Below, piece after piece: positions 1 to 21,393 of a DNA stretch of 21,489 nt. A model generated the notes under the pieces. That model was not told the DNA's origin. It was given only the letters and a program-made list of their open reading frames with translations, and did no database searches. Both the position numbers and the translations under genes were made by a program. Positions within the stretch are counted from its first letter, which is position 1. Every line of letters begins with the position of its first letter. Source of the stretch: a virus; the IMG/VR virus record IMGVR_UViG_3300047546_002137, positions 1 to 21,489 of that record; one strand, written 5' to 3'.

Positions 1-126
1 TGCCAGAAAAACCAGAATAGCCAGAAATACCTGATGCGCCATTTGTGCCGTTTGTTCCATTTGTGCCAGAAAAACCAGAATAGCCAGAAATACCTGATGC
101 GCCATTTGTGCCGTTTGTTCCATTTG
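1..126 (-). repeat. Perfect 63-bp tandem duplication within the Gly-X-Y array
   Basis: Bases 1-63 and 64-126 appear identical, and a shortened 54-bp diverged copy follows at 127-180. The unit encodes 21 residues (seven Gly-X-Y triplets), so copy-number change keeps the frame. It may continue left of the window. Elsewhere in the gene, triplets are coded with mixed synonymous codons, so this identity suggests a recent expansion. Confidence 0.85.
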
Positions 127-2608
127 TTCCGCTGAAACCAGAATAGCCAGAAATACCTGATGCACCATTTGTTCCATTTGTTCCGCTAAAGCCAGAATAA
201 CCGCTGATGCCTGATGCACCATTTGTTCCGCTATAACCAGAAATCCCGCTAAAACCAGAATAACCGCTTATTCCACTAAATCCTGAATATCCAGAAATTC
301 CTGATGTGCCGTTTGTTCCGCTATAACCAGAAATTCCGCTAAATCCTGAATACCCGCTGATGCCACTAAATCCAGAATATCCAGAAACACCACTTCCAGA
401 AAAACCAGAATAACCAGAGATACCGCTAAAACCAGAATAGCCACTAACACCACTTCCAGAAAATCCAGACCGACCACTAAAACCAGAAATACCACTAAAC
501 CCAGAATAGCCAGAGATTCCAGAAAAACCAGAATAGCCAGAAATTCCAGATGCGCCATTTGTGCCACTAAAACCAGAGATACCACTAAAACCAGAATAAC
601 CGCTGATTCCAGAAACACCATTTATTCCAGAAAATCCAGAATAACCGCTAATCCCCGAATTTCCAATAGCACCAGACCAACCAGACCAACCAGAAAAACC
701 AGAAATTCCTGATGCGCCATCAATTCCTGAATATCCAGAAAAACCAGAAATTCCAGAATCACCGCTAAATCCAGAAATACCAGAAAAGCCGCTATAACCA
801 GATACACCGCTATACCCGCTTTGGGTATACATTACTTGTGTAGCCGTAAAAATAACACCAGGGACAGATGGCGAAACTGGTGATGTGCCAGCAGGGTCAG
901 ATTGAATTGAAACTTGTGTGTCAGTTGTTGACCAGATCATTTCAATGTAATCATTGGCAACAACTTTTAACACATAGTTAACAGTCATCAATCCATAGCC
1001 ATTAACGCTACCATGTTTGGATTGAATACTTAATTTGGTGTCGCTATCAGGAATATCGCCTGTGCTACCGCTATCATTTTTTCTCAACCAAACATTAACA
1101 TCATGAATTTGTGTATCTGTGTTAACGAATTGAATTGAAAAAGTCAGGCTATAAACACCAGCATTTGAAAATGTTACTCTGCTACCAGATACAACATTAA
1201 CACCTGTGTTGTTTGAATCTGCACTATTCAAAGTGATTGAATATGCAGTATTGGCAGATGTGGCAACCTGATCTGTTGTGTCCCAAAAAGAACCCCAATT
1301 GCCAATAGCACCACCAGCCCCAGGCGCACCGCTGTAACCAGAATAGCCAGAAATACCCGAATAGCCACTCAAGCCAAGACCAGAGTAACCGCTAAATCCT
1401 GATGCGCCTGAATAGCCCGAAATGCCAGAACCAGAATAGCCGCTAAAACCTGACTGACCAGAGAATCCAGACAAACCAGAATCACCGCTGTAACCGCTGA
1501 TGCCGCTAAAGCCAGAATCGCCAGAATATCCGCTAAAGCCAGAAATGCCTTGTTCGCCTGAATAGCCAGAGAATCCAGAATAACCACTTACACCAGAACC
1601 CGAATATCCCGATGTTCCAGACTCACCACTAAATCCAGAATAGCCAGAAATGCCCGATTCGCCATTCAGTCCAGAATAGCCAGAAATACCAGAATCGCCG
1701 CTAAAACCACTAATTCCAGATGCGCCTGATTCACCCGAATAACCGCTGAACCCAGATGCGCCAACTTCACCCGAATAGCCAGAAAATCCGCTGATGCCTG
1801 ACCAACCACTTTGACCAGACTCACCAGACCAACCGCTATAACCAGATTGCCCTGACCAACCAGATTCACCACTAAAACCTGAATAACCAGATTGACCAGA
1901 AAAGCCAGAATATCCAGATTCGCCAGAGAATCCAGAAATACCTACTTCACCAGACCAGCCAGAATATCCGCTAAAGCCAGACCAGCCACTTGTGCCAGAT
2001 TCGCCAGAGTAACCGCTAAAACCAGATTGACCAGAGAATCCGCTTAGACCAGAAAAACCAGACGCACCCGATTCACCTGAATAACCGCTAAATCCAGATT
2101 CGCCAGAAAAGCCTGAATAGCCAGATACACCGCTATATCCAGATGTTCCTGTTGCGCCTGTTGCGCCTGACTCACCGCTAAAGCCTGAATAGCCACTAAA
2201 TCCAGAAATTCCAGATTGCCCATCCAATCCAGAATAACCGCTGAATCCGCTAAAACCGCTTAGACCAGATGCGCCAGTTTGACCCGAAAATCCAGAGAAT
2301 CCAGACTCACCTGAAAATCCAGAATAGCCTGATTCACCAGATGCGCCAGATGTTCCTGTTGCGCCACTAAATCCTGAAAAACCAGAAGTGCCACTAAAGC
2401 CAGAATAACCACTAGCCCCAGGCAGACCAACGCCAGAATACCCACTATAACCAGAGTAACCAGATGTTCCGCTTGGACCATATAGCCCCCGATTGATGTT
2501 TATGTTTTGCTGTGCAGGGGGCTGAACATTGATGACATTGCGTGTCGGGGGATGAATGGAAACATTCAGGTTGTTTTGATCAACCACATCAACTTTTATG
2601 TTTCCCAT
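1..2608 (-). CDS. Collagen-like phage tail adhesin with internal jelly-roll-like domain (partial)
   Basis: The frame opens at ATG 2608-2606, directly after the TGA of the upstream gene (TGATCATG junction). I translated it to base 2 with no stop, giving 869 codons; the C-terminus is outside the window. Residues 1 to about 40 form a non-repetitive head beginning MGNIKVDVVDQNN, probably the attachment to the tail. Residues about 41-430 are Gly-X-Y triplets, almost all GYS, GFS, GIS, GES, GAS or GTS. Residues about 433-598 (near 1310-815) are a non-repetitive, beta-rich domain beginning GAIGNWGSFWDTTDQVA, which looks like a C1q/TNF-type jelly roll. From about residue 600 to the edge the Gly-X-Ser array resumes, with added GTN and GAS units. 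Proline is nearly absent. The role inferred from the cassette position and collagen-like repeats is a trimeric tail fibre or adhesin for host binding. The repeat and frame are certain; the function is inference. Confidence 0.85.
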   Translation of the reverse strand, partial: MGNIKVDVVDQNNLNVSIHPPTRNVINVQPPAQQNININRGLYGPSGTSGYSGYSGYSGVGLPGASGYSGFSGTSGFSGFSGATGTSGASGESGYSGFSGESGFSGFSGQTGASGLSGFSGFSGYSGLDGQSGISGFSGYSGFSGESGATGATGTSGYSGVSGYSGFSGESGFSGYSGESGASGFSGLSGFSGQSGFSGYSGESGTSGWSGFSGYSGWSGEVGISGFSGESGYSGFSGQSGYSGFSGESGWSGQSGYSGWSGESGQSGWSGISGFSGYSGEVGASGFSGYSGESGASGISGFSGDSGISGYSGLNGESGISGYSGFSGESGTSGYSGSGVSGYSGFSGYSGEQGISGFSGYSGDSGFSGISGYSGDSGLSGFSGQSGFSGYSGSGISGYSGASGFSGYSGLGLSGYSGISGYSGYSGAPGAGGAIGNWGSFWDTTDQVATSANTAYSITLNSADSNNTGVNVVSGSRVTFSNAGVYSLTFSIQFVNTDTQIHDVNVWLRKNDSGSTGDIPDSDTKLSIQSKHGSVNGYGLMTVNYVLKVVANDYIEMIWSTTDTQVSIQSDPAGTSPVSPSVPGVIFTATQVMYTQSGYSGVSGYSGFSGISGFSGDSGISGFSGYSGIDGASGISGFSGWSGWSGAIGNSGISGYSGFSGINGVSGISGYSGFSGISGFSGTNGASGISGYSGFSGISGYSGFSGISGFSGRSGFSGSGVSGYSGFSGISGYSGFSGSGVSGYSGFSGISGYSGFSGISGYSGTNGTSGISGYSGFSGISGYSGFSGISGYSGTNGASGISGYSGFSGTNGTNGASGISGYSGFSGTNGTNGTNGASGISGYSGFSGTNGTNGTNGASGISGYSGFSG

Positions 2609-2610
2609 GA

Positions 2611-3099
2611 TCACTCCACAATGATGCCATCAGAACGAACCAAGAACAGCAAAAAGATGATGTAGTCATTGGCAGGGTTAGTGCCATCTGTGGGGAAACT
2701 GATTTTAATGCGACCAGAGTAGCCAACACAATCAACAGCGTTGATATCCAATTCAGGGTCTGTTGCCATCAAGCCCCAAGCACCCGCATCAATCACCAGC
2801 GTAAATTCGCCAAGCAAGTCATGTCGATTGGTGATGGTCAAAGGGATGGGTTCGGGGGTCGGCTCATAGTTACCGATATCAAAAGTCAAACCATTGCGGG
2901 TATCTTCAATGTTTGTGACTTCCCTGCGAATGATCTGTGCATCAATCGTTGCGGTTGTTAGATCAACAGGGGTAACATCATCTGTCCCTTTAATCGCCAG
3001 ATTCCAATAGGTTTGTTGTTCCCAAACCAATTCGCCAGCAATAATAGGATTGTCGAACCCGCTAACTTGCGTTAGGGTGTTTTTGTTAAACACAGCCAT
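2611..3099 (-). CDS. Small baseplate/tail-fibre associated structural protein
   Basis: This 162-residue protein starts at ATG 3099, about 7 bases after a strong ribosome binding site (AAAGGGG). Its middle (WNLAIKGTDDVTPVDLTTAT, then DAQIIRREV) resembles the beta-sandwich N-terminal domain of phage upper-baseplate (BppU-like) proteins, which carry a phrase of the type 'gdd..pvDLtgaT..aqir'. The C-terminal part is also beta-rich and ends in a hydrophobic stretch, IIFLLFLV, before RSDGIIVE. There is no signal peptide. The gene sits between the tail fibre and the collagen-like adhesin, two bases ahead of the latter's start, so it probably helps attach or assemble that adhesin. The domain resemblance is moderate and the role is inferred from context; a hypothetical virion protein is the safe reading. 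Confidence 0.6.
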   Translation of the reverse strand: MAVFNKNTLTQVSGFDNPIIAGELVWEQQTYWNLAIKGTDDVTPVDLTTATIDAQIIRREVTNIEDTRNGLTFDIGNYEPTPEPIPLTITNRHDLLGEFTLVIDAGAWGLMATDPELDINAVDCVGYSGRIKISFPTDGTNPANDYIIFLLFLVRSDGIIVE

Positions 3100-7094: not shown

Positions 7095-7550
7095 TTACAT
7101 CACCCAAAATTCTTCTAATTTTTGAAATCCAAACTTGCCATAATTCAAATTTGGACTATTGACCATTTTGCTGATAAAAAAATGATTGATTCGACCATCT
7201 TCTTTCATCTGTATGGCTTCTTCAAGATAACGGCTTAACAACCTATGTCCAGCAGTTCCCATCCTATGTTCTTGCTTGACATAGTAAGCCAGTTCGGTCA
7301 AAAAGAAATGCTTGGGCGACCAAATGCTAGGCATCACAATAGCCATGATCAAACCAACAATTTCCTGATCGCATTCAGCCACCAAAAGAATGCCCTTTCC
7401 AGCCATGATTTCAGCCAGCATTGCTGTGATGTATTCGGCATCATCAGCATCTTGCAAAAAGCCATAGGGCATATTAGACCTGTATTCCCTTAATAGGTCT
7501 AGTATTTGTGGAATGTCGTATGGCGACACTTTACGAATTTGCGGGTGCAT
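7095..7550 (-). CDS. GNAT-family N-acetyltransferase inside the tail operon
   Basis: I chose ATG 7550, which has GGAAAAG just upstream and gives 151 residues; a longer reading from TTG 7583 overlaps the previous gene more and has no better signal. The fold signature is clear: an N-terminal strand/helix (IRKVSPYDIPQILDLLREY), central strands ILLVAECDQEIVGLIMAIV, the acyl-CoA loop region EHRMGTAGHRLLSRY (a variant of R/Q-x-x-G-x-G/A), and the C-terminal NYGKFGFQKLEEFWVM. The family transfers an acetyl group from acetyl-CoA to an amine. The target is unknown: a tail protein, a host protein or a small molecule are all possible. The gene lies between a minor tail protein (20-base overlap) and J (TAAATG junction), so it is expressed with the tail genes. 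Confidence 0.85.
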   Translation of the reverse strand: MHPQIRKVSPYDIPQILDLLREYRSNMPYGFLQDADDAEYITAMLAEIMAGKGILLVAECDQEIVGLIMAIVMPSIWSPKHFFLTELAYYVKQEHRMGTAGHRLLSRYLEEAIQMKEDGRINHFFISKMVNSPNLNYGKFGFQKLEEFWVM

Positions 7551-8136
7551 CTTTTCCAAACTGGTAATTAATGGTTTCCACAAAACTAACTCGATTCATG
7601 GAAGTGTCGCCTGGGGTAAAAAATTGCCAACTATTATTGTTTGTATAGCGACCAGCCACTCTATTTTGTAAAACAAGTTGAATGGATGCGGCAGAAATTG
7701 TTACTGTGCCAACATAGGTTTTAATTTCTTCCATCCATTGTTCAGTAATGGCAAAACTATTTACAAAACCATTAAAAAATTGATACAAGCCGCCTGTGCC
7801 GCCAGTTGTAATCAAAGCCCCATTTGTATCAAAAAAGCCATGCCACATTTGAATTGCGCTACCTTTTAGGTTTTGCGACAAAACCCAACCAAGCACACTT
7901 GTATCAATGCCTGTCATGGTTACTGTAGTTTCATTGGCTGTTGATTTAATGTCACGCTGAACATCATTAACTTTAACCAATACACCAACAGCAGAAAATG
8001 GACCAGCATCAACGGCGGAAACAGTTATATCATTAGGCGCTGTGGTAAAACGATATACTGTTCCATTAACTGTAATACGCACAAAATCAGCGTATCGAAT
8101 ATTATTTGTTCCATCAACAGGCGCAATAATGTTCAT
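7531..8136 (-). CDS. Minor tail protein upstream of the tip
   Basis: The 201-residue protein starts at ATG 8136 in an ATGA overlap with the preceding gene. It is beta-rich, with an N-terminal part RYADFVRITVNGTVYRFTTA and a C-terminal segment NNSWQFFTPGDTSMNRVSF followed by YQFGKDAP. Such phrases occur in minor tail proteins encoded between tape measure and tip genes, where the equivalents of lambda L/K/I or distal-tail proteins lie. No NlpC/P60 peptidase motif or metal-binding motif is visible, so it is not the lambda K-type enzyme. It probably forms part of the tail-tip complex. The tail role rests mainly on gene order. Confidence 0.65.
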   Translation of the reverse strand: MNIIAPVDGTNNIRYADFVRITVNGTVYRFTTAPNDITVSAVDAGPFSAVGVLVKVNDVQRDIKSTANETTVTMTGIDTSVLGWVLSQNLKGSAIQMWHGFFDTNGALITTGGTGGLYQFFNGFVNSFAITEQWMEEIKTYVGTVTISAASIQLVLQNRVAGRYTNNNSWQFFTPGDTSMNRVSFVETINYQFGKDAPANS

Positions 8137-13399: not shown

Positions 13400-13744
13400 T
13401 TAAACCGCCGTTGATGGGTCAGAACGATAACACATGAATGTGATATTCATGCGATCATTTGATTCTCTAGCGTCTGTAATTCGCCAATCTTGATTGCGCC
13501 AAATAATTGAATAAAGATTTTGATCATCAACAATCTTTTTCATATTTGGGGTGTAATTGACTGTTAAATTAACCAAATCTTGATACAAACGATATTTTTC
13601 GCTGATTTTCACACTATTTGCAACATCACGCACCCTAGCCCTAGTTTGAAACCATCGGGTAATAGTTGTGCTTTGCTCACCAAACGCATCTTTGCTAAAA
13701 GTGAGTTTATTAATTGTGATGTTTTCAAATCTTGCAATTGCCAT
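13400..13744 (-). CDS. Head-tail adaptor (stopper) protein
   Basis: The 114-residue protein starts at ATG 13744, sharing one base with the stop of the connector gene (TAATG). The pattern matches the phage head-tail joining family (SPP1 gp16 / HK97-type): an N-terminal strand pair, the segment TTITRWFQTRARVRDVANSV, then YTPNMKKIVDDQNLYSIIWR and the near-C-terminal DWRITDARESNDRMNITFMC. Family members form a ring under the connector that closes the head and docks the tail. The gene neighbours are the connector and the tail terminator, in standard order. Confidence 0.85.
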   Translation of the reverse strand: MAIARFENITINKLTFSKDAFGEQSTTITRWFQTRARVRDVANSVKISEKYRLYQDLVNLTVNYTPNMKKIVDDQNLYSIIWRNQDWRITDARESNDRMNITFMCYRSDPSTAV

Positions 13745-14409
13745 TACATCACCAAAGGTTTGTAAGGTCTGAGCAACATTTCAATTCCATAAGGAATTTT
13801 ATTTTGCTTTACATCTGTTGCGGCATCACGATTGTTGTAAAGGTGGGTCAACAACAATAGACCAGCCTGTTGAATCACAGGGTAGGTAGCCAAAACACTT
13901 TGTGCTGTGGTGTAGATCGCCACAATCGGGGCTGTGCGATTAGTGTCAATATCTGTCGGCAGATTGTTGACAATGATCTTATTGCCTGAGTTATCGTAAA
14001 TATAACCATTTGGATCAAGTGTTGTAAATACGCCACTACTATTGTAGTAACCAACCGAATCAATAACGATATTTGGCTGTAAGGGAAATGCGTTTTGGCT
14101 TACTTCTGGCAAATCAAGGCTGGCTGGTTGCAAGCCAAATGATTCAGGACCATAGTAAACCCGATATTTCACCGAAAAAATCGACAGACCTAGATAATCT
14201 TCAATTGCCATTCGCACAGCCAATTCAAGACCTTCTAAATATGTATCTTGCGATTCATCATCAAACAGATTTAACTGATTGGTGATTTGGGTCAGGGTTA
14301 GCCATGATGTAGATACATCACGCTCAATCTGTTCAAACTTTTGATAGTTGAATGGATTGCGGGTCTGTGCCCCAAAGGGCAAGCCAGCAATATCCTGATT
14401 TACTGGCAT
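13744..14409 (-). CDS. Head-tail connector protein (gp6/gp8-like)
   Basis: The 221-residue protein starts at ATG 14409 with AAAGGGG upstream. The N-terminal half is helical and acidic (TLTQITNQLNLFDDESQDTY, LELAVRMAIEDYLGLSIFSV), as in HK97 gp6 and the phiE125 gp8-type connectors, which begin 'lkaHLrid...ed..l..li.aA...iE.ylg'. The middle is beta-rich (VIDSVGYYNSSGVFTTLDPN) and the C-terminal part is helical again (VIQQAGLLLLTHLYNNRD), ending RPYKPLVM. These proteins form a dodecamer or tridecamer ring below the portal. The position after the capsid genes and before the adaptor agrees. Confidence 0.85.
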   Translation of the reverse strand: MPVNQDIAGLPFGAQTRNPFNYQKFEQIERDVSTSWLTLTQITNQLNLFDDESQDTYLEGLELAVRMAIEDYLGLSIFSVKYRVYYGPESFGLQPASLDLPEVSQNAFPLQPNIVIDSVGYYNSSGVFTTLDPNGYIYDNSGNKIIVNNLPTDIDTNRTAPIVAIYTTAQSVLATYPVIQQAGLLLLTHLYNNRDAATDVKQNKIPYGIEMLLRPYKPLVM

Positions 14410-14420
14410 TGTTGACCCCT

Positions 14421-15437
14421 TTAGGCGGCAGAGATACGAACACCCGCAAATGGATTGCGAACAGATGAAACCACCCGCTTTTCAGCGTATAGCGTCACAA
14501 AGCCTGGTTGTGTTTGTTCAAACATTTGAACATTGAATGTTTCTGTGTCGCCAATGGTCAAGAATTGTTCCCAATTAGCCAAATAAGCAGGGAATGCGCT
14601 GGTCAGGTAAGGGTTGGGAATTACAGGGAAACCAAACACATTACCAACAGCCGCACCATCTTTTTCGCCAATTTCCAAGAACAGCGGCAAGCCTTGACTG
14701 TCTTTCAATTCACGCAAAGCAAGAATGAAGTCAGGACTCATGTGCCATGCAGTTCCAGGCAACGACCAATACACAGGCGGCAACGCTTTAGCCGTATCCA
14801 CAATCTTGTTATAGGTCACAGCAGACCCGCCAAGGCTAACTGTGGCAATTGTATGGATACCAGCAGTAATGGCTGTGCCAGAAGTGCCATAAGCACTAGC
14901 CGCACCACTTGTGTAGGAATCTAAGCCACGCAAACCATCTGTGCCACCAGTAGATGTGGTAGTCGAACCAGCCTGATCATTATTGACAATCATGGATTGA
15001 CCTTCTAACTGGCTAAATTCAAGCATAAGGTCATCAACCAATGTTGGTTGCAATCCATTAATGTCGGACATAGCGGCTGTGCGGATAGGCAACTGTGCAG
15101 TAATCACACGCACAGGCAATTGCCAAATGCTTGTGTTCACATTGGGCGAACCCGAATCAGGCACAACAGCATAAGTCCAAGGATTTGTAGAGTTAGCGGC
15201 ATTACCAGTTTTAGCAACAAACTGAATATCAGAACCACTAACAGTAATTTGGCGTGAACCTTGACGCAAAGGATTTGCAGAACGCAATGCGGCAAAGGCA
15301 TCATCAAAAACAACATTACCACCAATGCCAGAACCAGAACCTGTCAGGTTGCTTGCTTCACGCAAATCAATCGTTTGTTTGCCACCTTCATGAATGGCTT
15401 TTTTGATACCTTCAAGGATTGTTTCGGTAATGTTCAT
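14421..15437 (-). CDS. Second HK97-fold capsid protein, paralogue without scaffold domain
   Basis: The 338-residue protein starts at ATG 15437. It is clearly related to the major capsid protein encoded next to it. Shared segments include ANPLRQGSRQ (versus MNPLRGVSRT), QLPIRTAAMSDINGL (versus QFPIRTAALDDIDGL), EFSQLEGQSMIVNNDQAG, GGTDGLRGLD, ALPPVYW and the C-terminal EKRVVSSVRNPFAGVR. It lacks about 80 N-terminal residues corresponding to the scaffold-like domain, retaining only a short helix (ITETILEGIKKAIHEGG). The E-loop, P-domain and A-domain regions appear complete, so it is unlikely to be decaying. It may form pentamers, a minor shell component or an alternative capsid. A strong terminator lies just upstream, which suggests lower expression than the first copy. 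The role is inference. Confidence 0.88.
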   Translation of the reverse strand: MNITETILEGIKKAIHEGGKQTIDLREASNLTGSGSGIGGNVVFDDAFAALRSANPLRQGSRQITVSGSDIQFVAKTGNAANSTNPWTYAVVPDSGSPNVNTSIWQLPVRVITAQLPIRTAAMSDINGLQPTLVDDLMLEFSQLEGQSMIVNNDQAGSTTTSTGGTDGLRGLDSYTSGAASAYGTSGTAITAGIHTIATVSLGGSAVTYNKIVDTAKALPPVYWSLPGTAWHMSPDFILALRELKDSQGLPLFLEIGEKDGAAVGNVFGFPVIPNPYLTSAFPAYLANWEQFLTIGDTETFNVQMFEQTQPGFVTLYAEKRVVSSVRNPFAGVRISAA

Positions 15438-15464
15438 GGCAATATTCCAAAAAATTCAAGAGTT

Positions 15465-15495
15465 AAAAAAGGGTGGGGGTTTCCCCCCGACCCTT
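15465..15495 (-). terminator. Strong intrinsic terminator between the two capsid genes
   Basis: On the minus strand, starting two bases after the capsid stop, AAGGGTCGGGGGG pairs with CCCCCACCC around an AAA loop with one bulged C, followed at once by TTTTTT (15470-15465). The stem is almost all G-C. It is the only strong rho-independent terminator I see in the operon. The second capsid gene starts 27 bases beyond the T run. Confidence 0.88.
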
Positions 15496-15496
15496 C

Positions 15497-16837
15497 TTAG
15501 GCGGCAGTAGCCGTAGAACGATAGCGAACGCCAGCAAAGGGGTCACGCACCGATGTTGCCAAACGCTTCTCACCATAGAAAGTGATGTAGCCAGGCAATG
15601 TTTGATCGTAGCGGCGAACAATCATGTTCAGACGATCAATGATGGTGTGATAGCGACTCCAATCGGCAAACCACATCGGATAAAGGCTGGTAGTGCCAGG
15701 AGAACCAGCCGCACCTGTGGGGGCATCAACATAGTTGTTAACAACCACATCAAAGCCCAACAGTTTACCGACAATGCCTTCATACACCAGAGGCGACATA
15801 CGCTCAAACACAGGAGTGCCATTGTCATCTTTCAGACCACGAATAGCCGACAGCATCAGAGGACTGATCATGAATTTGGCATTAGGTGTCCAGTATTGTT
15901 GCGGCAGGGCATAAATCAGGTTGATAACATCGTCAAAAGTGACATTGTTAGCAGAACCATTGCCGTTGGTGGTCAACTGGTCATAGGTAGCCAGCGAATG
16001 CAGACCATTCGTTGTGGCTGTGCCAGATGTGCCAAACGCAGACACGCTGGTTGTGCCGCCTGTGTAAGAACCATTAGCACCGCCGTATTGATCCAAACCA
16101 CGCAGACCATCAGCACCGCCAGTAGTCACAGAAGTGCCTGTGCCCGACTGATCGTTGTTGCGAATCATGGACAGACCTTCCGACTGACTGAATTCAGCCA
16201 GCATATCGTCAACCACATTGGCTTCCAAACCATCAATGTCATCCAAAGCCGCTGTGCGGATCGGGAATTGCACATTAATATCTTTCAAAATCAACTGCCA
16301 AATGGAAGTGTTTTCTGTGGTGGGTGTGCCGTTGTTCTGAATGCCATAACCCCATTGTGCGCCAGCATTACCTGTTTTCACTCGGAATTGATAAGCAGAA
16401 CCATCGGTTGCAACTGTGCGAGAAACACCACGCAAGGGGTTCATCAGACGCAAAGCAACAAATGTGGGATCGTATGTTGTGCGACCACCTTGGTTATAAC
16501 CACCAGCAGTCAGGGCAGATGCTTCATTCATGTAAGCCTGATATTGGCTTTCATCAGCAAACATCTTAATTTCTTTGTCCATCTGCTTGCCTTCTTTGTA
16601 GAAGGAAGTCAGTTGCTCACGCACCGAACGATTCACATCCTGACGCACAGTTTTAGCGATAGGCTTGATGATTTCGGGGGCGGCAAGAGTAGAAATCTTG
16701 GCTTCTAGGGCGGCGACTTGTTCAGTCAGTTCACCTTTGACAGTTTCGATTTCGGTTTTGACCTGAGTGGTCACTTCGGCAATCTTTTCCACATTAGCGG
16801 CTTCGATTGCATCCAGTTTTTCAATGATTTCTTTCAT
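15497..16837 (-). CDS. Major capsid protein, HK97 fold with N-terminal scaffold-like domain
   Basis: The 446-residue protein starts at ATG 16837 with AAAGG six bases upstream and a TAATCATG junction to the protease gene. Residues 1 to about 65 form a charged coiled coil (MKEIIEKLDAIEAANVEKIA, TEQVAALEAKISTLAAPE), like the delta scaffold domain of HK97 that the protease removes. From about residue 108 the shell domain starts: RLMNPLRGVSRTVA, INVQFPIRTAALDDIDGLEA, EFSQSEGLSMIRNNDQSG, GADGLRGLDQYG, and the C-terminal EKRLATSVRDPFAGVRYRS. This is a typical HK97-type major capsid layout. It would form hexamers and probably pentamers of the head. The protease gene directly upstream supports processing; the exact cleavage site cannot be read here. 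Confidence 0.93.
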   Translation of the reverse strand: MKEIIEKLDAIEAANVEKIAEVTTQVKTEIETVKGELTEQVAALEAKISTLAAPEIIKPIAKTVRQDVNRSVREQLTSFYKEGKQMDKEIKMFADESQYQAYMNEASALTAGGYNQGGRTTYDPTFVALRLMNPLRGVSRTVATDGSAYQFRVKTGNAGAQWGYGIQNNGTPTTENTSIWQLILKDINVQFPIRTAALDDIDGLEANVVDDMLAEFSQSEGLSMIRNNDQSGTGTSVTTGGADGLRGLDQYGGANGSYTGGTTSVSAFGTSGTATTNGLHSLATYDQLTTNGNGSANNVTFDDVINLIYALPQQYWTPNAKFMISPLMLSAIRGLKDDNGTPVFERMSPLVYEGIVGKLLGFDVVVNNYVDAPTGAAGSPGTTSLYPMWFADWSRYHTIIDRLNMIVRRYDQTLPGYITFYGEKRLATSVRDPFAGVRYRSTATAA

Positions 16838-16839
16838 GA

Positions 16840-17646
16840 TTAACCTTTGATTCGTTGGTTTAGGATTTTGACCAGTTCACGCTGTTCAAGCAACGCAAGC
16901 AAGTCAGTCTTTTCGGTTGCCTCCACATCGGCATCACGCTGATCTGGCGCAGTTTCAGCAGTAGTTTGAACAACATCACGCTGTTCGATTACTTGCTTAA
17001 ACACAGATGCGGCGGCAACCGCATCCTTCTTGGACAGTCCAACATCACGCAGGGCTTTTTCCAAAACTTTTAAATCCGCTGTGCCATCTTCCCTGAAATA
17101 TTCAAGGCTTTTAACTTCGGCTTGCGGATTATTTGGGTGAATCACGACAGAGACTTCACGCAGACCACCTTTAGTAATCTGGAAATATCCATCTTCATAA
17201 GGATTGTCGCTACCAACAGTCATTGGTTCGCCATCTTCTTTGACCCATTGATATTGTTCAGCGTATGCGCCAACAGAAACACCGCCAAACATATTCGGCG
17301 ATTCACACATAATTTGATACAGGTCAGAACCTGTTGTGGTGTTCATATACAGCCTACCACTTGCTGTCATGCCATCATCGTCAAATTCAAACTCTGTCCA
17401 TTCACCGACAGGCATCATTTGCGATTCATGATTCACATACATTGGAAGGGGTCTGCCTTGATCGGCAAACTCTTTTGCCCATTCCATAAAACCTTCAGGC
17501 TTATAAAAGAATTTGCGCCCATCTGCGCCTTCTCTTGCGCCCCATGTGGTGACTTTTGCGCTAATCTTGCCTGTCGGCTCTTTGCTTGCGTCTTGGCTTT
17601 CGATTGCCATTTTCGCTTCGCAAAGCATTATCAATTGTTTGGTCAT
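16840..17646 (-). CDS. HK97-type prohead maturation protease
   Basis: I prefer ATG 17646 (MTKQLIMLCEAKMAIESQDA, 268 residues), which has GGGG six bases upstream. A longer reading from ATG 17727 adds 27 residues with no family resemblance and lies over another small ORF. The domain resembles prohead protease family U35: KISAKVTTWGAREG, then MYVNHESQMMPVGEW with likely catalytic His73, and NMFGGVSVGAYAE with likely catalytic Ser124. The region after about residue 190 is helical (LEKALRDVGLSKKDAVAAAS) and ends ELVKILNQRIKG; such tails occur in these enzymes. The enzyme cleaves the scaffold part of the capsid protein during head maturation. The start choice is moderately sure; the family is firm. 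Confidence 0.9.
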   Translation of the reverse strand: MTKQLIMLCEAKMAIESQDASKEPTGKISAKVTTWGAREGADGRKFFYKPEGFMEWAKEFADQGRPLPMYVNHESQMMPVGEWTEFEFDDDGMTASGRLYMNTTTGSDLYQIMCESPNMFGGVSVGAYAEQYQWVKEDGEPMTVGSDNPYEDGYFQITKGGLREVSVVIHPNNPQAEVKSLEYFREDGTADLKVLEKALRDVGLSKKDAVAAASVFKQVIEQRDVVQTTAETAPDQRDADVEATEKTDLLALLEQRELVKILNQRIKG

Positions 17647-17746
17647 AAATAACCCCATTGCCTTTTGATTGGTCAATGTCATATATTGTTTTAGGTGGGC
17701 GACCCCTTTTTTTAGGGGGTTCGCCATTTGGCTTGTATGTTGCCAA
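17561..17746 (-). CDS. Small basic ORF with AT-hook-like motif, overlapping the protease start
   Basis: This frame differs from both the portal and protease frames. Read from TTG 17746 it encodes 61 residues beginning with the phrase ATYKPNGEPPKKRGRPPKTI; an upstream GTG at 17779 would give 72 residues. KRGRPPK matches the AT-hook core (R-G-R-P), which binds the minor groove of AT-rich DNA. The C-terminus is strongly basic (RKPRRKQRADRQD). It fills the gap of about 135 bases between the portal stop (17781) and the preferred protease start (17646), overlapping the latter by 86 bases. A small gene would explain that gap better than a 5'-extended protease. Initiation signals are weak and the function is unknown. 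A chance ORF is possible. Confidence 0.5.
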   Translation of the reverse strand: MATYKPNGEPPKKRGRPPKTIYDIDQSKGNGVIYDQTIDNALRSENGNRKPRRKQRADRQD

Positions 17747-17780: not shown

Positions 17781-19178
17781 TTATTTTGCGCCGATATTCA
17801 TCTTTTTGGTTTGATTGCCCCCGCCACCCCCTGTATCTTGTGGACTTGAACCAGGAATAGGCTTATCTTTGCCATCAATATCAAGCAAATCGTCAGCCCC
17901 TTCTTTTTCAGCCATCCCTAGATATTCTCTGGCTTCATTAGGGGTCATAATGCCATTTTTAACGCCAGCAGTCGCAAAATTCATCTGGTCTAAGGGTGCG
18001 CCTTTGAGGAAATTGCGTGTATCAAATTCAATGCAAAGATTTGGAAATCCTGGGAAAAGATGTTGTTTTAACTTTTGCTGAACATTAACAATTAGCGGCG
18101 ACATGGTGGATTTATAAAATTCATCCATCATGGTTTGAGTATTATTGAATTTGCTTTCACCAATATTCAACATTGAATGAGGAACGCCAAACAAACCGCA
18201 AATCCGCTTCATGGTTTGCATTTTTAATTCGGCTGTTTGGGTATCTTGCATTGTCAACATTTGTAAAGGCGTGTATTTCATGCCTTGATCTAACAACATA
18301 CCCTGTCCAGGTTTAGATGGGTCACTTGTGCGACTGCCCACCATGTTCGACCATGCTTCTTTCAATCGACTAGCAATTTCCTTATATTTGGCATCAGGAA
18401 TAACTTGCTCTGTTGTAAACATACCACTAGGTTTTGCGCCATTTTGCATCACATAGTTGGCATACAGGTCAATGTCCTGATCAAGTCCAACCAATTCAGC
18501 CATCAACACGCCTTTGTTGAAACCTGACGAACCCTGCCAGCCCATTTCCTTGATGTGCATGACTTGATGGGCGGCTAATTGCTGGTCTTTGCTAAAACCA
18601 TAACTAGGAGTAGACAGGCGATAAGATGGATAACGCAAATCTGTAATCGTTACAGCAATCAATGTGCTATCTAGCACATACATTTCCAAAGGTGTTTGTG
18701 TCGGATTGTCTTGGTCTTTCCTCCACCACAAAGTAAAGGCTTCGCCAAGCAATTCATGCCACATCAACCATTGATACCAAAATTCATAAGTTGTTTGAAA
18801 ATGGTTAGGGCTGTTTAACAGGTTATGAACCTGTTTGGCTTTGGTTTTATCTCTTGTTCCAACTTTATTGGATTTCAAGGCATCTACATAAGTGCCATCT
18901 TCTGCTTGCGCCATGACACGAATAGGCAATTGCGCCAATGCTCTTGCTTTAATGCCAACGCAAGACATAACTGTTGAATTGCGTGAAAGAACCGAAACAT
19001 CCACAGGGCGACCAGCATTTGTGGTGCTACCTGTGGTGACATATAAAATTTGTGTCGATACTGTCGGTTTTTTCTGTCCACCTTGGTAAATAACATTATT
19101 ACCAAGGGCAGTTTGACCAAACAGGGCATTGCTTTCCTGTTGCGTGTTTGTGCGCTTAAAAATATCAAGAATGCCCAT
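17781..19178 (-). CDS. Portal protein, HK97 family
   Basis: The 465-residue protein starts at ATG 19178 with TTGGGGGATTT upstream, a strong ribosome binding site. It opens MGILDIFKRTNTQQE, typical of HK97-type portals, and contains SVLSRNSTVMSCVGIKARAL, an N-terminal region of the family ('vy.ci..ia..va.lpl.v'), then HNLLNSPNHFQTTYEFWYQW and LLGEAFTLWWRKD, the familiar portal core. IKEMGWQGSSGFNKGVLMAE and the downstream RICGLFGVPHSMLNIGESKF also match the family. The C-terminal portion carries PNEAREYLGM and ends in a glycine-rich tail (PQDTGGGGGNQTKKM). It forms the dodecameric DNA gate at one capsid vertex. Gene order (large terminase, portal, protease, capsid) is canonical. Confidence 0.95.
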   Translation of the reverse strand: MGILDIFKRTNTQQESNALFGQTALGNNVIYQGGQKKPTVSTQILYVTTGSTTNAGRPVDVSVLSRNSTVMSCVGIKARALAQLPIRVMAQAEDGTYVDALKSNKVGTRDKTKAKQVHNLLNSPNHFQTTYEFWYQWLMWHELLGEAFTLWWRKDQDNPTQTPLEMYVLDSTLIAVTITDLRYPSYRLSTPSYGFSKDQQLAAHQVMHIKEMGWQGSSGFNKGVLMAELVGLDQDIDLYANYVMQNGAKPSGMFTTEQVIPDAKYKEIASRLKEAWSNMVGSRTSDPSKPGQGMLLDQGMKYTPLQMLTMQDTQTAELKMQTMKRICGLFGVPHSMLNIGESKFNNTQTMMDEFYKSTMSPLIVNVQQKLKQHLFPGFPNLCIEFDTRNFLKGAPLDQMNFATAGVKNGIMTPNEAREYLGMAEKEGADDLLDIDGKDKPIPGSSPQDTGGGGGNQTKKMNIGAK

Positions 19179-19208: not shown

Positions 19209-20882
19209 TCAAAATAATCTAAGTCCATAGGAATCTGACACAAAAACATTGTCCAAATGGCAATGTAAAGCCATGATTAAAGCAATAATTCCATCTACTT
19301 TTGCTGATGGGTCTGCCTCATTTTTACGCACTTTTACATTGCCGTTTACATCTGTATAAACTTCACAGTTACCCAATTGCCATCCCACAAATGGGTTTCC
19401 ATCATGCCCAATGCCATGTTTCAATATCAATTGTTCGGCAGTTTTTGATGGGTTTGACAGCACCGCCATGCCCTGACCGACCTTTTTAACAGGCAATCCA
19501 TCGGCATATAAATTTGCCACCAATGCGGCGGCATTGTATGGGTCATACCCAATTTCTTTGATATTGTGTTCAATACATTCGTTTTTAATGTATTGCTCAA
19601 TTTCATTTAAATCGGTCACATTACCTGGGGTTAACCTTAATATGCCAGATTGATAGGCTTGGCTAAATATGCTTTTGTAATGATTGGGAATCAAATCCAA
19701 TGAATCTTCTGGCAAGAAAAACTGGAATTTAGCCCACAAATCTTCTTCACCATACCTATGTAAAGTCACCACAGCATTAAGGTCACGGCTGTGCGCCAAG
19801 TCAAAAGCAAGGAATGTGGCTTCTGGCTTGTCTTTTGGTTTGGGTCTAATTGATTCATCCCAATGCCTACGATCAACCCATGCGGCATTTGCTGACACAT
19901 AGATGTTCAATTGCTTGCACAGGAATTCGTTAAGGCTGGCTGGCTTGCTCATGGCTTCATCTGCCATGTGCCTAATGGCTTCCACAGTCACCGATATGCC
20001 AAGCATAGGGTTGGCTTTATACCAAGTGGATTCGTCTTGCCAATTGTCGCCTGGGTCAATTGAATAACACAGCCCAAACCACCTAAAGTTGTCGTGCGCC
20101 GCCCCACGCAAGACAGCCCTGTAATGACTTAAATCTTCAAAGAATTTGGTTTCTTTCGTGAAACTTGCTGTAGTTAAATACAAACGCAATGGGTTTTTCC
20201 TAGCACCCATACCCGAATGCAAAACTTCAATGCTAGTGCGTTCAACAATTTGCGCCGCCTCATCAATCAGGGCGCATGATGGGTTTTTACCATCGCCTGT
20301 TTTTCTGTTTTCCCTAGATAGCGCACGATAGGTAGAAGTAATATCGCCACGCTTTTTTATTTCATGTCGATAGGGTTCATATTTGGCTTTTAGTTTGGCA
20401 TCCATGCCATCCAAAATAGCCTTGGATGAATCAAAACAAATGGATGATTGTTCACGGCTAGTAGCCAGCGTAAACACTTCTGAACCCATTTCGCCAAATT
20501 GCAATTCATAAAGGGCAATGATAGATGCCAATGTTGTTTTGCCTGACTTTCGGGGCACAAACAAAATAACATCAGTTACCCATCTTTTGTCATGATCTTT
20601 CTTGTCCCTAAAACCATAAATGGCGGCAAGAAACATGACTTGGAAACCCTCAAGTTCAATGGGCTTCCCTGCATCTGGACCTTTAATGTGTTTGCAAAAT
20701 TTGCTGAATTTAAGGATGTGTTCTGCTTTGGCAGGGACAAACTCAAATGGCGCATCTTTGCGCTCAACCATGTCAAGAAATCTTTGACAGGCTATTTTTA
20801 CATCTTCACAAGCAACTATATCGCCACGAACAACACCTATGGCATATTTAAATCCTGGCTCAAGCAGTATCGAATAACTCAT
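19209..20882 (-). CDS. terL: Terminase large subunit, HK97 type
   Basis: The 557-residue protein starts at ATG 20882, overlapping the small terminase gene by 23 bases. The ATPase half carries a Walker A motif (VPRKSGKTT, residues 109-117) and a Walker B motif (CALIDEA, residues 203-209) with catalytic Glu208. The nuclease half shows Asp361 in FLAFDLAHSRDLNAV, Asp447 in EIGYDPYNAAAL and Asp530 in AKVDGIIALIMAL, the expected metal-binding acidic residues. Length and motif spacing fit the HK97-type large terminases. It is the packaging motor that cuts concatemers and pumps DNA into the prohead through the portal, gene for which follows. All key residues are present. Confidence 0.96.
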   Translation of the reverse strand: MSYSILLEPGFKYAIGVVRGDIVACEDVKIACQRFLDMVERKDAPFEFVPAKAEHILKFSKFCKHIKGPDAGKPIELEGFQVMFLAAIYGFRDKKDHDKRWVTDVILFVPRKSGKTTLASIIALYELQFGEMGSEVFTLATSREQSSICFDSSKAILDGMDAKLKAKYEPYRHEIKKRGDITSTYRALSRENRKTGDGKNPSCALIDEAAQIVERTSIEVLHSGMGARKNPLRLYLTTASFTKETKFFEDLSHYRAVLRGAAHDNFRWFGLCYSIDPGDNWQDESTWYKANPMLGISVTVEAIRHMADEAMSKPASLNEFLCKQLNIYVSANAAWVDRRHWDESIRPKPKDKPEATFLAFDLAHSRDLNAVVTLHRYGEEDLWAKFQFFLPEDSLDLIPNHYKSIFSQAYQSGILRLTPGNVTDLNEIEQYIKNECIEHNIKEIGYDPYNAAALVANLYADGLPVKKVGQGMAVLSNPSKTAEQLILKHGIGHDGNPFVGWQLGNCEVYTDVNGNVKVRKNEADPSAKVDGIIALIMALHCHLDNVFVSDSYGLRLF

Positions 20883-21244: not shown

Positions 21245-21319
21245 CAATTGAAAAGTGGGCTGTTTTTCCCAAGCACATGATCGGGCAACCAAGATTTAGG
21301 GCAACCCACTTATCAATTG
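21245..21319. repeat. 15-bp near-perfect inverted repeat between tRNA and terS
   Basis: The arms 21245-21259 (CAATTGAAAAGTGGG) and 21305-21319 (CCCACTTATCAATTG) are complementary at 14 of 15 positions, around 45 bases. The right arm overlaps the last bases of the tRNA. No T-run follows, so a plain terminator is unlikely. Two GGTTGCCC (minus strand) copies at 21283-21290 and 21299-21306 lie 16 bases apart inside or across an arm. Candidate packaging or control site. Confidence 0.7.
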
Positions 21320-21393
21320 GTGCTGACAGTAGGACTTGAACCCACAACCTACTGATTACAAATCAGTTGCGCTACCAGTTGCGCTATGCCAGC
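21318..21393 (-). tRNA. tRNA-Thr (UGU anticodon), CCA encoded
   Basis: The 76-nt gene folds fully by eye: acceptor GCTGGCA pairs with TGTCAGC (one G-U), then A and the encoded CCA; the D stem is GCGC/GCGC with loop AACTGGTA; the anticodon stem ACTGA/TCAGT encloses TTTGTAA, giving anticodon TGT; the T stem GTGGG/CCTAC encloses TTCAAGT. The variable loop is short. It is transcribed in the same direction as the late genes and lies about 100 bases ahead of terS. It would read ACA (and by wobble ACN) threonine codons. Confidence 0.95.

Follow-up and report, generated by a model that had tools for sequence, protein, structure and literature searches.

Why would a small tailed phage keep a pair of related, adjacent genes for shell proteins? 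Most tailed phages build the hexamers and pentamers of the head from one protein, T4 being the textbook exception (PMC9958956). The question arose from a 21,489-base virus record (hereafter the window), whose minus strand encodes a head and tail module of siphophage type. The gene order on that strand is tRNA-Thr, a small ORF at the place usual for a terminase small subunit, terminase large subunit (TerL), portal, S78 protease, a first capsid gene (MCP1), a second capsid gene (MCP2) and a connector, and then neck genes, tape measure, and tail tip and fibre genes. Family matches identified TerL (19209..20882, minus strand; PF20441 and PF03354; phrog_9, 3e-129), the portal protein (17781..19178, minus strand; PF04860, 1.1e-64), the prohead protease (Peptidase_S78; 16840..17727, minus strand; PF04586, 1e-8) and the head-tail connector (13744..14409, minus strand; PF05135, 6e-5; phrog_40, 1e-12). 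The tRNA-Thr (TGT; 21318-21393, minus strand) lies directly upstream of the packaging genes, and an Rfam scan of the window returned nothing besides this tRNA. An acetyltransferase-like gene (7095-7583, minus strand; phrog_1249, 1.4e-19) sits within the tail gene cluster. At the end of the window, a long gene that runs off the edge (2-2614, minus strand) encodes a collagen-like repeat protein (GFSGYSG/GISGYSG units), probably a tail fibre, whose repeats are broken by a globular stretch.

The two capsid genes, MCP1 (446 aa; 15497..16837, minus strand) and MCP2 (338 aa; 14421..15437, minus strand), encode proteins with 151 of 342 residues identical (44%; BLASTP E 7e-80), far beyond chance. Both proteins score well above the curated cut-offs of PF05065 (Phage_capsid; MCP1 97.0 bits, 1.7e-27; MCP2 66.4 bits, 3.6e-18; cut-off 24.2) and TIGR01554 (MCP1 101.6 bits, 5.1e-29; MCP2 69.6 bits; cut-off 27.5), and both match phrog_10 (3.2e-27 for MCP1). 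MCP1 also matches the RcGTA capsid protein at the sequence level (2.4e-7). An AF2 model of MCP2 built from a 37-sequence alignment (pLDDT 70, pTM 0.72) was compared with the PDB by Foldseek, and the nearest solved structures were the RcGTA capsid protein (Rcc01687; 6tb9, 1.3e-16) and HK97 gp5 (prohead I, 8fqk, 5.3e-15), both of HK97 fold. The corresponding model of MCP1 (pLDDT 44) was too poor for use, but its family matches are clear and stronger than those of MCP2. These results bear out the initial annotation, which had described the two genes as HK97-fold capsid paralogues, had listed motifs that do recur in both proteins in the alignment, and had named beforehand the fold of the second protein as one point on which its reading could fail. 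It is very likely that MCP2 is a second shell protein of HK97 fold, which arose by duplication and has been kept. In both HK97 and RcGTA, by contrast, a single protein forms hexamers and pentamers alike.

To place the pair among relatives, we used loci from scans of viral contigs together with the record of phage P19250A. In all 300 loci with each gene as a single ORF, MCP1 lies ahead of MCP2 and shares its strand; 270 of these passed a complete-ends filter. Some contigs are represented more than once, and the distinct protein pairs number 210. Of another 22 loci, 19 are truncated on one side by the end of the contig or locus and three have a split ORF (L099 and L110 in MCP2, L133 in MCP1), in good agreement with the earlier impression that both copies are intact. 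MCP2 never occurs alone except at cut contigs. A search of GTDB genomes with MCP2 found no relatives, and the sole isolate with the pair is Methylophilaceae phage P19250A (KX815270, genes 0005 and 0006). Its tandem pair, gene order and intergenic hairpin are as in the window, with identities of 58% for MCP1 and 54% for MCP2; its record, however, lists the second protein as 'hypothetical' and assigns it no role. Phage Venkman, a reported relative of P19250A (PMC8163748), was considered as a further member and rejected, having a scaffold and single-capsid head module and giving no match. The group is a family of small, tailed, freshwater and aquatic phages that keep two related shell-protein genes adjacent. 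Its nearly whole-looking contigs measure about 35-41 kb, close to the genome size of HK97, a T=7 phage, and a T=7 head is therefore likely. One contig of 75,987 bases (IMGVR_UViG_3300022748_000017; loci L221 and L279) is about twice the usual length and holds two different head-module copies, which reads as a chimera or as two joined phage genomes.

Both copies evolve under equal and strong purifying selection (945 close pairs; dN/dS 0.146 for each copy). A tree was built from 48 pairs and four single-capsid outgroups; in it, the MCP2 sequences form one clade (support 100) on a stem of 1.77 changes per site. This topology is consistent with one old tandem duplication before the group diversified, and agrees with the duplication origin suggested initially. 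An attempt to root the duplication with the single-capsid phages did not settle the root: the distance to these outgroups is too great (stem about 3), and MCP2 branches from within a poorly resolved group of MCP1 sequences. At E<=1e-3, MCP1 matched 37 phage records and MCP2 matched P19250A only; MCP2 hence looks like the derived copy. MCP2 is the more divergent protein in 90% of representative phage comparisons, and its per-site variability is higher across most of the shell. Fixed residue differences between the copies are confined to five positions, none interpretable alone. The second copy is seen only in this phage group, which suggests a duplication independent of that in T4.

The clearest difference between the paralogues lies at their N-termini. 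Approximately 104 residues precede the common 'EAS-LT' junction in MCP1 and approximately 26 in MCP2 (junction at residues 105 and 27), so that MCP2 joins the alignment about 78 residues after MCP1, close to the 80 or so noted initially. The N-terminus of MCP1 (approximately residues 1-104; 16526..16837, minus strand) is charged, with helices predicted at low confidence at residues 2-50, 64-81 and 96-110, and resembles a delta-type scaffold domain such as the HK97 capsid protein carries; it is presumably cleavable, at a putative point near the junction. MCP2 is without this scaffold-like stretch of about 100 residues, as had been proposed, but it is not bare: the earlier description missed an N-peptide of its own (residues 1-26; 15360..15437, minus strand) before the shell domain. 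The N-peptide has a conserved consensus across relatives, and is predicted to form an amphipathic helix (residues 3-17 in the model; hydrophobic moment z 2.25 on average). A further suggestion, that lack of a scaffold domain makes the second copy dependent on the first, is plausible; it does not follow strictly, given that MCP2 keeps this short N-peptide and that the propeptide of T4 gp24 has 10 residues only. During T4 maturation, gp24 loses those 10 residues and gp23 loses 65 (PMC9958956), hence a short propeptide on a vertex copy has precedent, and the N-peptide of MCP2 may likewise be a site of cleavage.

A feature absent from the initial annotation, a G+C-rich hairpin followed by a U-tract, was found by a terminator scan at the MCP1/MCP2 junction (15466..15498, minus strand). 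Its folding energy is -23 kcal/mol, and its z of -1.8 in single-sequence shuffles is not extreme. A G+C-rich hairpin was nevertheless present in every one of the 210 distinct MCP1/MCP2 spacers, accompanied by a U-tract in 196, while only ~1% of shuffled representative spacers had one; the hairpin persists among relatives even as its sequence varies freely. Elsewhere in the head module such sites occurred in 0-7% of bins, with the exception of a single bin within the last part of the protease gene. There, 17 of 56 representatives have terminator-like sites ~1500 nt ahead of the MCP1 stop, which look like a coding palindrome and were discarded. The protease/MCP1 and MCP2/connector junctions nearly abut and have no hairpin, the connector starting 11 nt past the MCP2 stop in the window and 0-20 nt past it in relatives. 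With its G+C-rich stem, U-tract and retention in relatives, the hairpin has the features of an intrinsic (rho-independent) terminator, and because it stands between the capsid genes, with none at the neighboring junctions, MCP2 would be on the attenuated side. Codon bias points in the same direction: judged by Nc and GC3, which are indirect measures of expression, it is stronger for MCP1 than for MCP2 in 84 of 93 representatives, which would fit greater production of MCP1. On the hairpin and the weaker codon bias, MCP2 may be made in fewer copies than MCP1. However, the attenuator-like hairpin stands above all downstream late genes, and Burkholderia phage Bcep176, whose head module has the same layout (portal, protease, capsid, hairpin, then neck genes) but a single capsid gene, likewise has a hairpin after that gene. 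The hairpin therefore need not have evolved to set an MCP1/MCP2 ratio; the terminator may be older than the duplication, with MCP2 later placed on the weakly expressed side.

Within the shell domain, we asked where the copies differ. Using rough domain limits taken from the MCP2 model, itself of modest confidence, identity between MCP1 and MCP2 was 32% in the A-domain and 43-57% in the N-arm, E-loop, spine, linker and C-terminal strands. Three deletions of 7-9 residues specific to MCP2 also lie in or just before the A-domain. This domain lies around the axis of the capsomer, the place at which pentamers and hexamers have to be different. T4 mutations that bypass gp24 map to the A domain as well (PMC9958956). 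The predicted A-domain differences lend modest support to a vertex role; within each family, too, no region varies more than this one, which limits their weight.

Comparison of close relatives revealed exchanges of capsid alleles by recombination. Within five clusters of MCP1 (shell identity at least 95%), 14 pairs of phages share no more than 75% identity in the MCP2 body. For example, DNA identity between loci L151 and L152 is 94-97% for the upstream sequence, MCP1, the spacer and the genes downstream, and 69% for MCP2; MCP2 was similarly swapped between the otherwise near-identical phages L179/L181, L143/L146 and L154/L155. The reverse case, similar MCP2 beside different MCP1, was seen in L002/L003 and L248/L258. 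The N-peptide is better kept in swapped pairs (87% identity) than in control pairs (59%), whereas the C-terminal end of MCP2 is not (62% versus 64%), placing the upstream breakpoint inside MCP2, just past the N-peptide. This position may simply reflect conserved DNA there. That MCP2 bodies have been exchanged beside near-identical MCP1 indicates that MCP1 tolerates quite different (~30%) MCP2 bodies. Tentatively, the vertex protein could be an exchangeable module, its body giving way, in several groups of near-identical phages, to an allele that differs by ~30%, with MCP1, spacer and N-peptide unchanged, although we consider this doubtful. If MCP2 is the penton, the corners of the capsid would be renewed by recombination independently of the remaining shell, perhaps in response to selection by an agent in contact with the vertices.

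What, then, might MCP2 do? We propose that a tandem duplication of an HK97-type capsid gene would have produced MCP1, which kept the N-terminal scaffold domain and would build the bulk of the shell (the hexamers), and MCP2, which lost most of that domain and may have become a dedicated minor shell subunit. Most likely, MCP2 would supply the pentamers for every vertex but the portal one (11 in all) in a head of T=7 size, comparable to T4 gp24. The hairpin after MCP1 would pass only part of transcription, giving less MCP2, like the neck and tail proteins encoded below it. MCP2 would join the growing prohead via lateral contacts with MCP1, and the S78 protease would probably trim its N-peptide of ~26 residues together with the MCP1 domain. 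On the T4 analogy, the expression evidence and the A-domain evidence, we consider it probable, with moderate confidence, that MCP2 is a dedicated vertex (penton) protein that co-assembles with MCP1. Such a protein is not a requirement, since one protein serves for both kinds of capsomer in other HK97-type phages.

MCP2 might instead be mixed with MCP1 inside hexamers, or occupy particular hexamer positions, in a two-protein lattice. It has a full HK97 fold with N-arm and E-loop kept, and lattices of two capsid proteins exist in another virus realm (PMC6414509). Nevertheless, we think this arrangement rather unlikely: the three MCP2-specific deletions around the capsomer centre and the lower-expression position of MCP2 both fit separate pentamers better, and the compatibility of MCP1 with such different MCP2 bodies would be harder to achieve within one capsomer. 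A gene directly preceding the connector, on the attenuated side of the hairpin, could also encode an HK97-fold ring near the portal or associated with the neck, or a low-copy size or assembly factor; yet the lattice-forming segments (N-arm, E-loop, spine helix and C-terminal strands) are all conserved, and we know of no such portal or neck ring, making this role improbable. The initial annotation had also entertained an alternative capsid. On such a reading, MCP2 would be the main shell protein of another kind of particle, or one used under different conditions, and would not assemble together with MCP1. MCP2 could in principle form its own shell, but its lack of a scaffold domain and its strict co-occurrence with MCP1 in one operon leave this idea very little probability. 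The three split-ORF loci might hint at a decaying or non-structural duplicate, an explanation that is barely credible and largely refuted by the strength of selection and by intact copies in nearly all relatives, P19250A included.

The analogy to T4, drawn from the outset, remains the best available. T4 gp23 (hexamer) and gp24 (vertex) are likewise two paralogous HK97-fold shell proteins, both retained, for which an origin by duplication has been proposed (PMC9958956, PMC3185693), and there too the vertex copy has the much shorter N-terminal propeptide. The systems also differ: the T4 copies are ~20% identical, against 44% here; the T4 head is large and prolate, and its core scaffold is a separate protein, whereas a scaffold-like domain is fused to MCP1. 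We liken the pair to a hexamer/vertex paralogue arrangement and do not place MCP2 in the gp24 family. A literature search for two HK97 capsid proteins in small phages found none (coverage was incomplete, making this weak evidence), and the division of labor known from the much larger T4 appears to be undescribed for phages of this size. If MCP2 is indeed a vertex protein, the pair would be an independent and much simpler case of a capsid protein splitting into two roles, in a widespread aquatic lineage, and a dedicated second shell protein would need no large genome. Cultivated P19250A makes the vertex hypothesis directly testable.

Lastly, we noted extra ORFs between the capsid genes of seven loci, all standing after the hairpin. 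The spacers of L127, L161, L167, L183 and L186, which belong to one subgroup, share a conserved ORF of ~100-115 aa (MPKP.DAMKAEAKRGLAWREEFKRGGTA...) with no assigned function. In L122 (5704-6243) and in the L208 spacer, the ORF between the hairpin and MCP2 gave no Pfam match at 0.01; its start is GIY-YIG-like (YTYIHF...PFYVGKGKGRR) and it has motifs of the SESHKANI type, so that it resembles a homing endonuclease.
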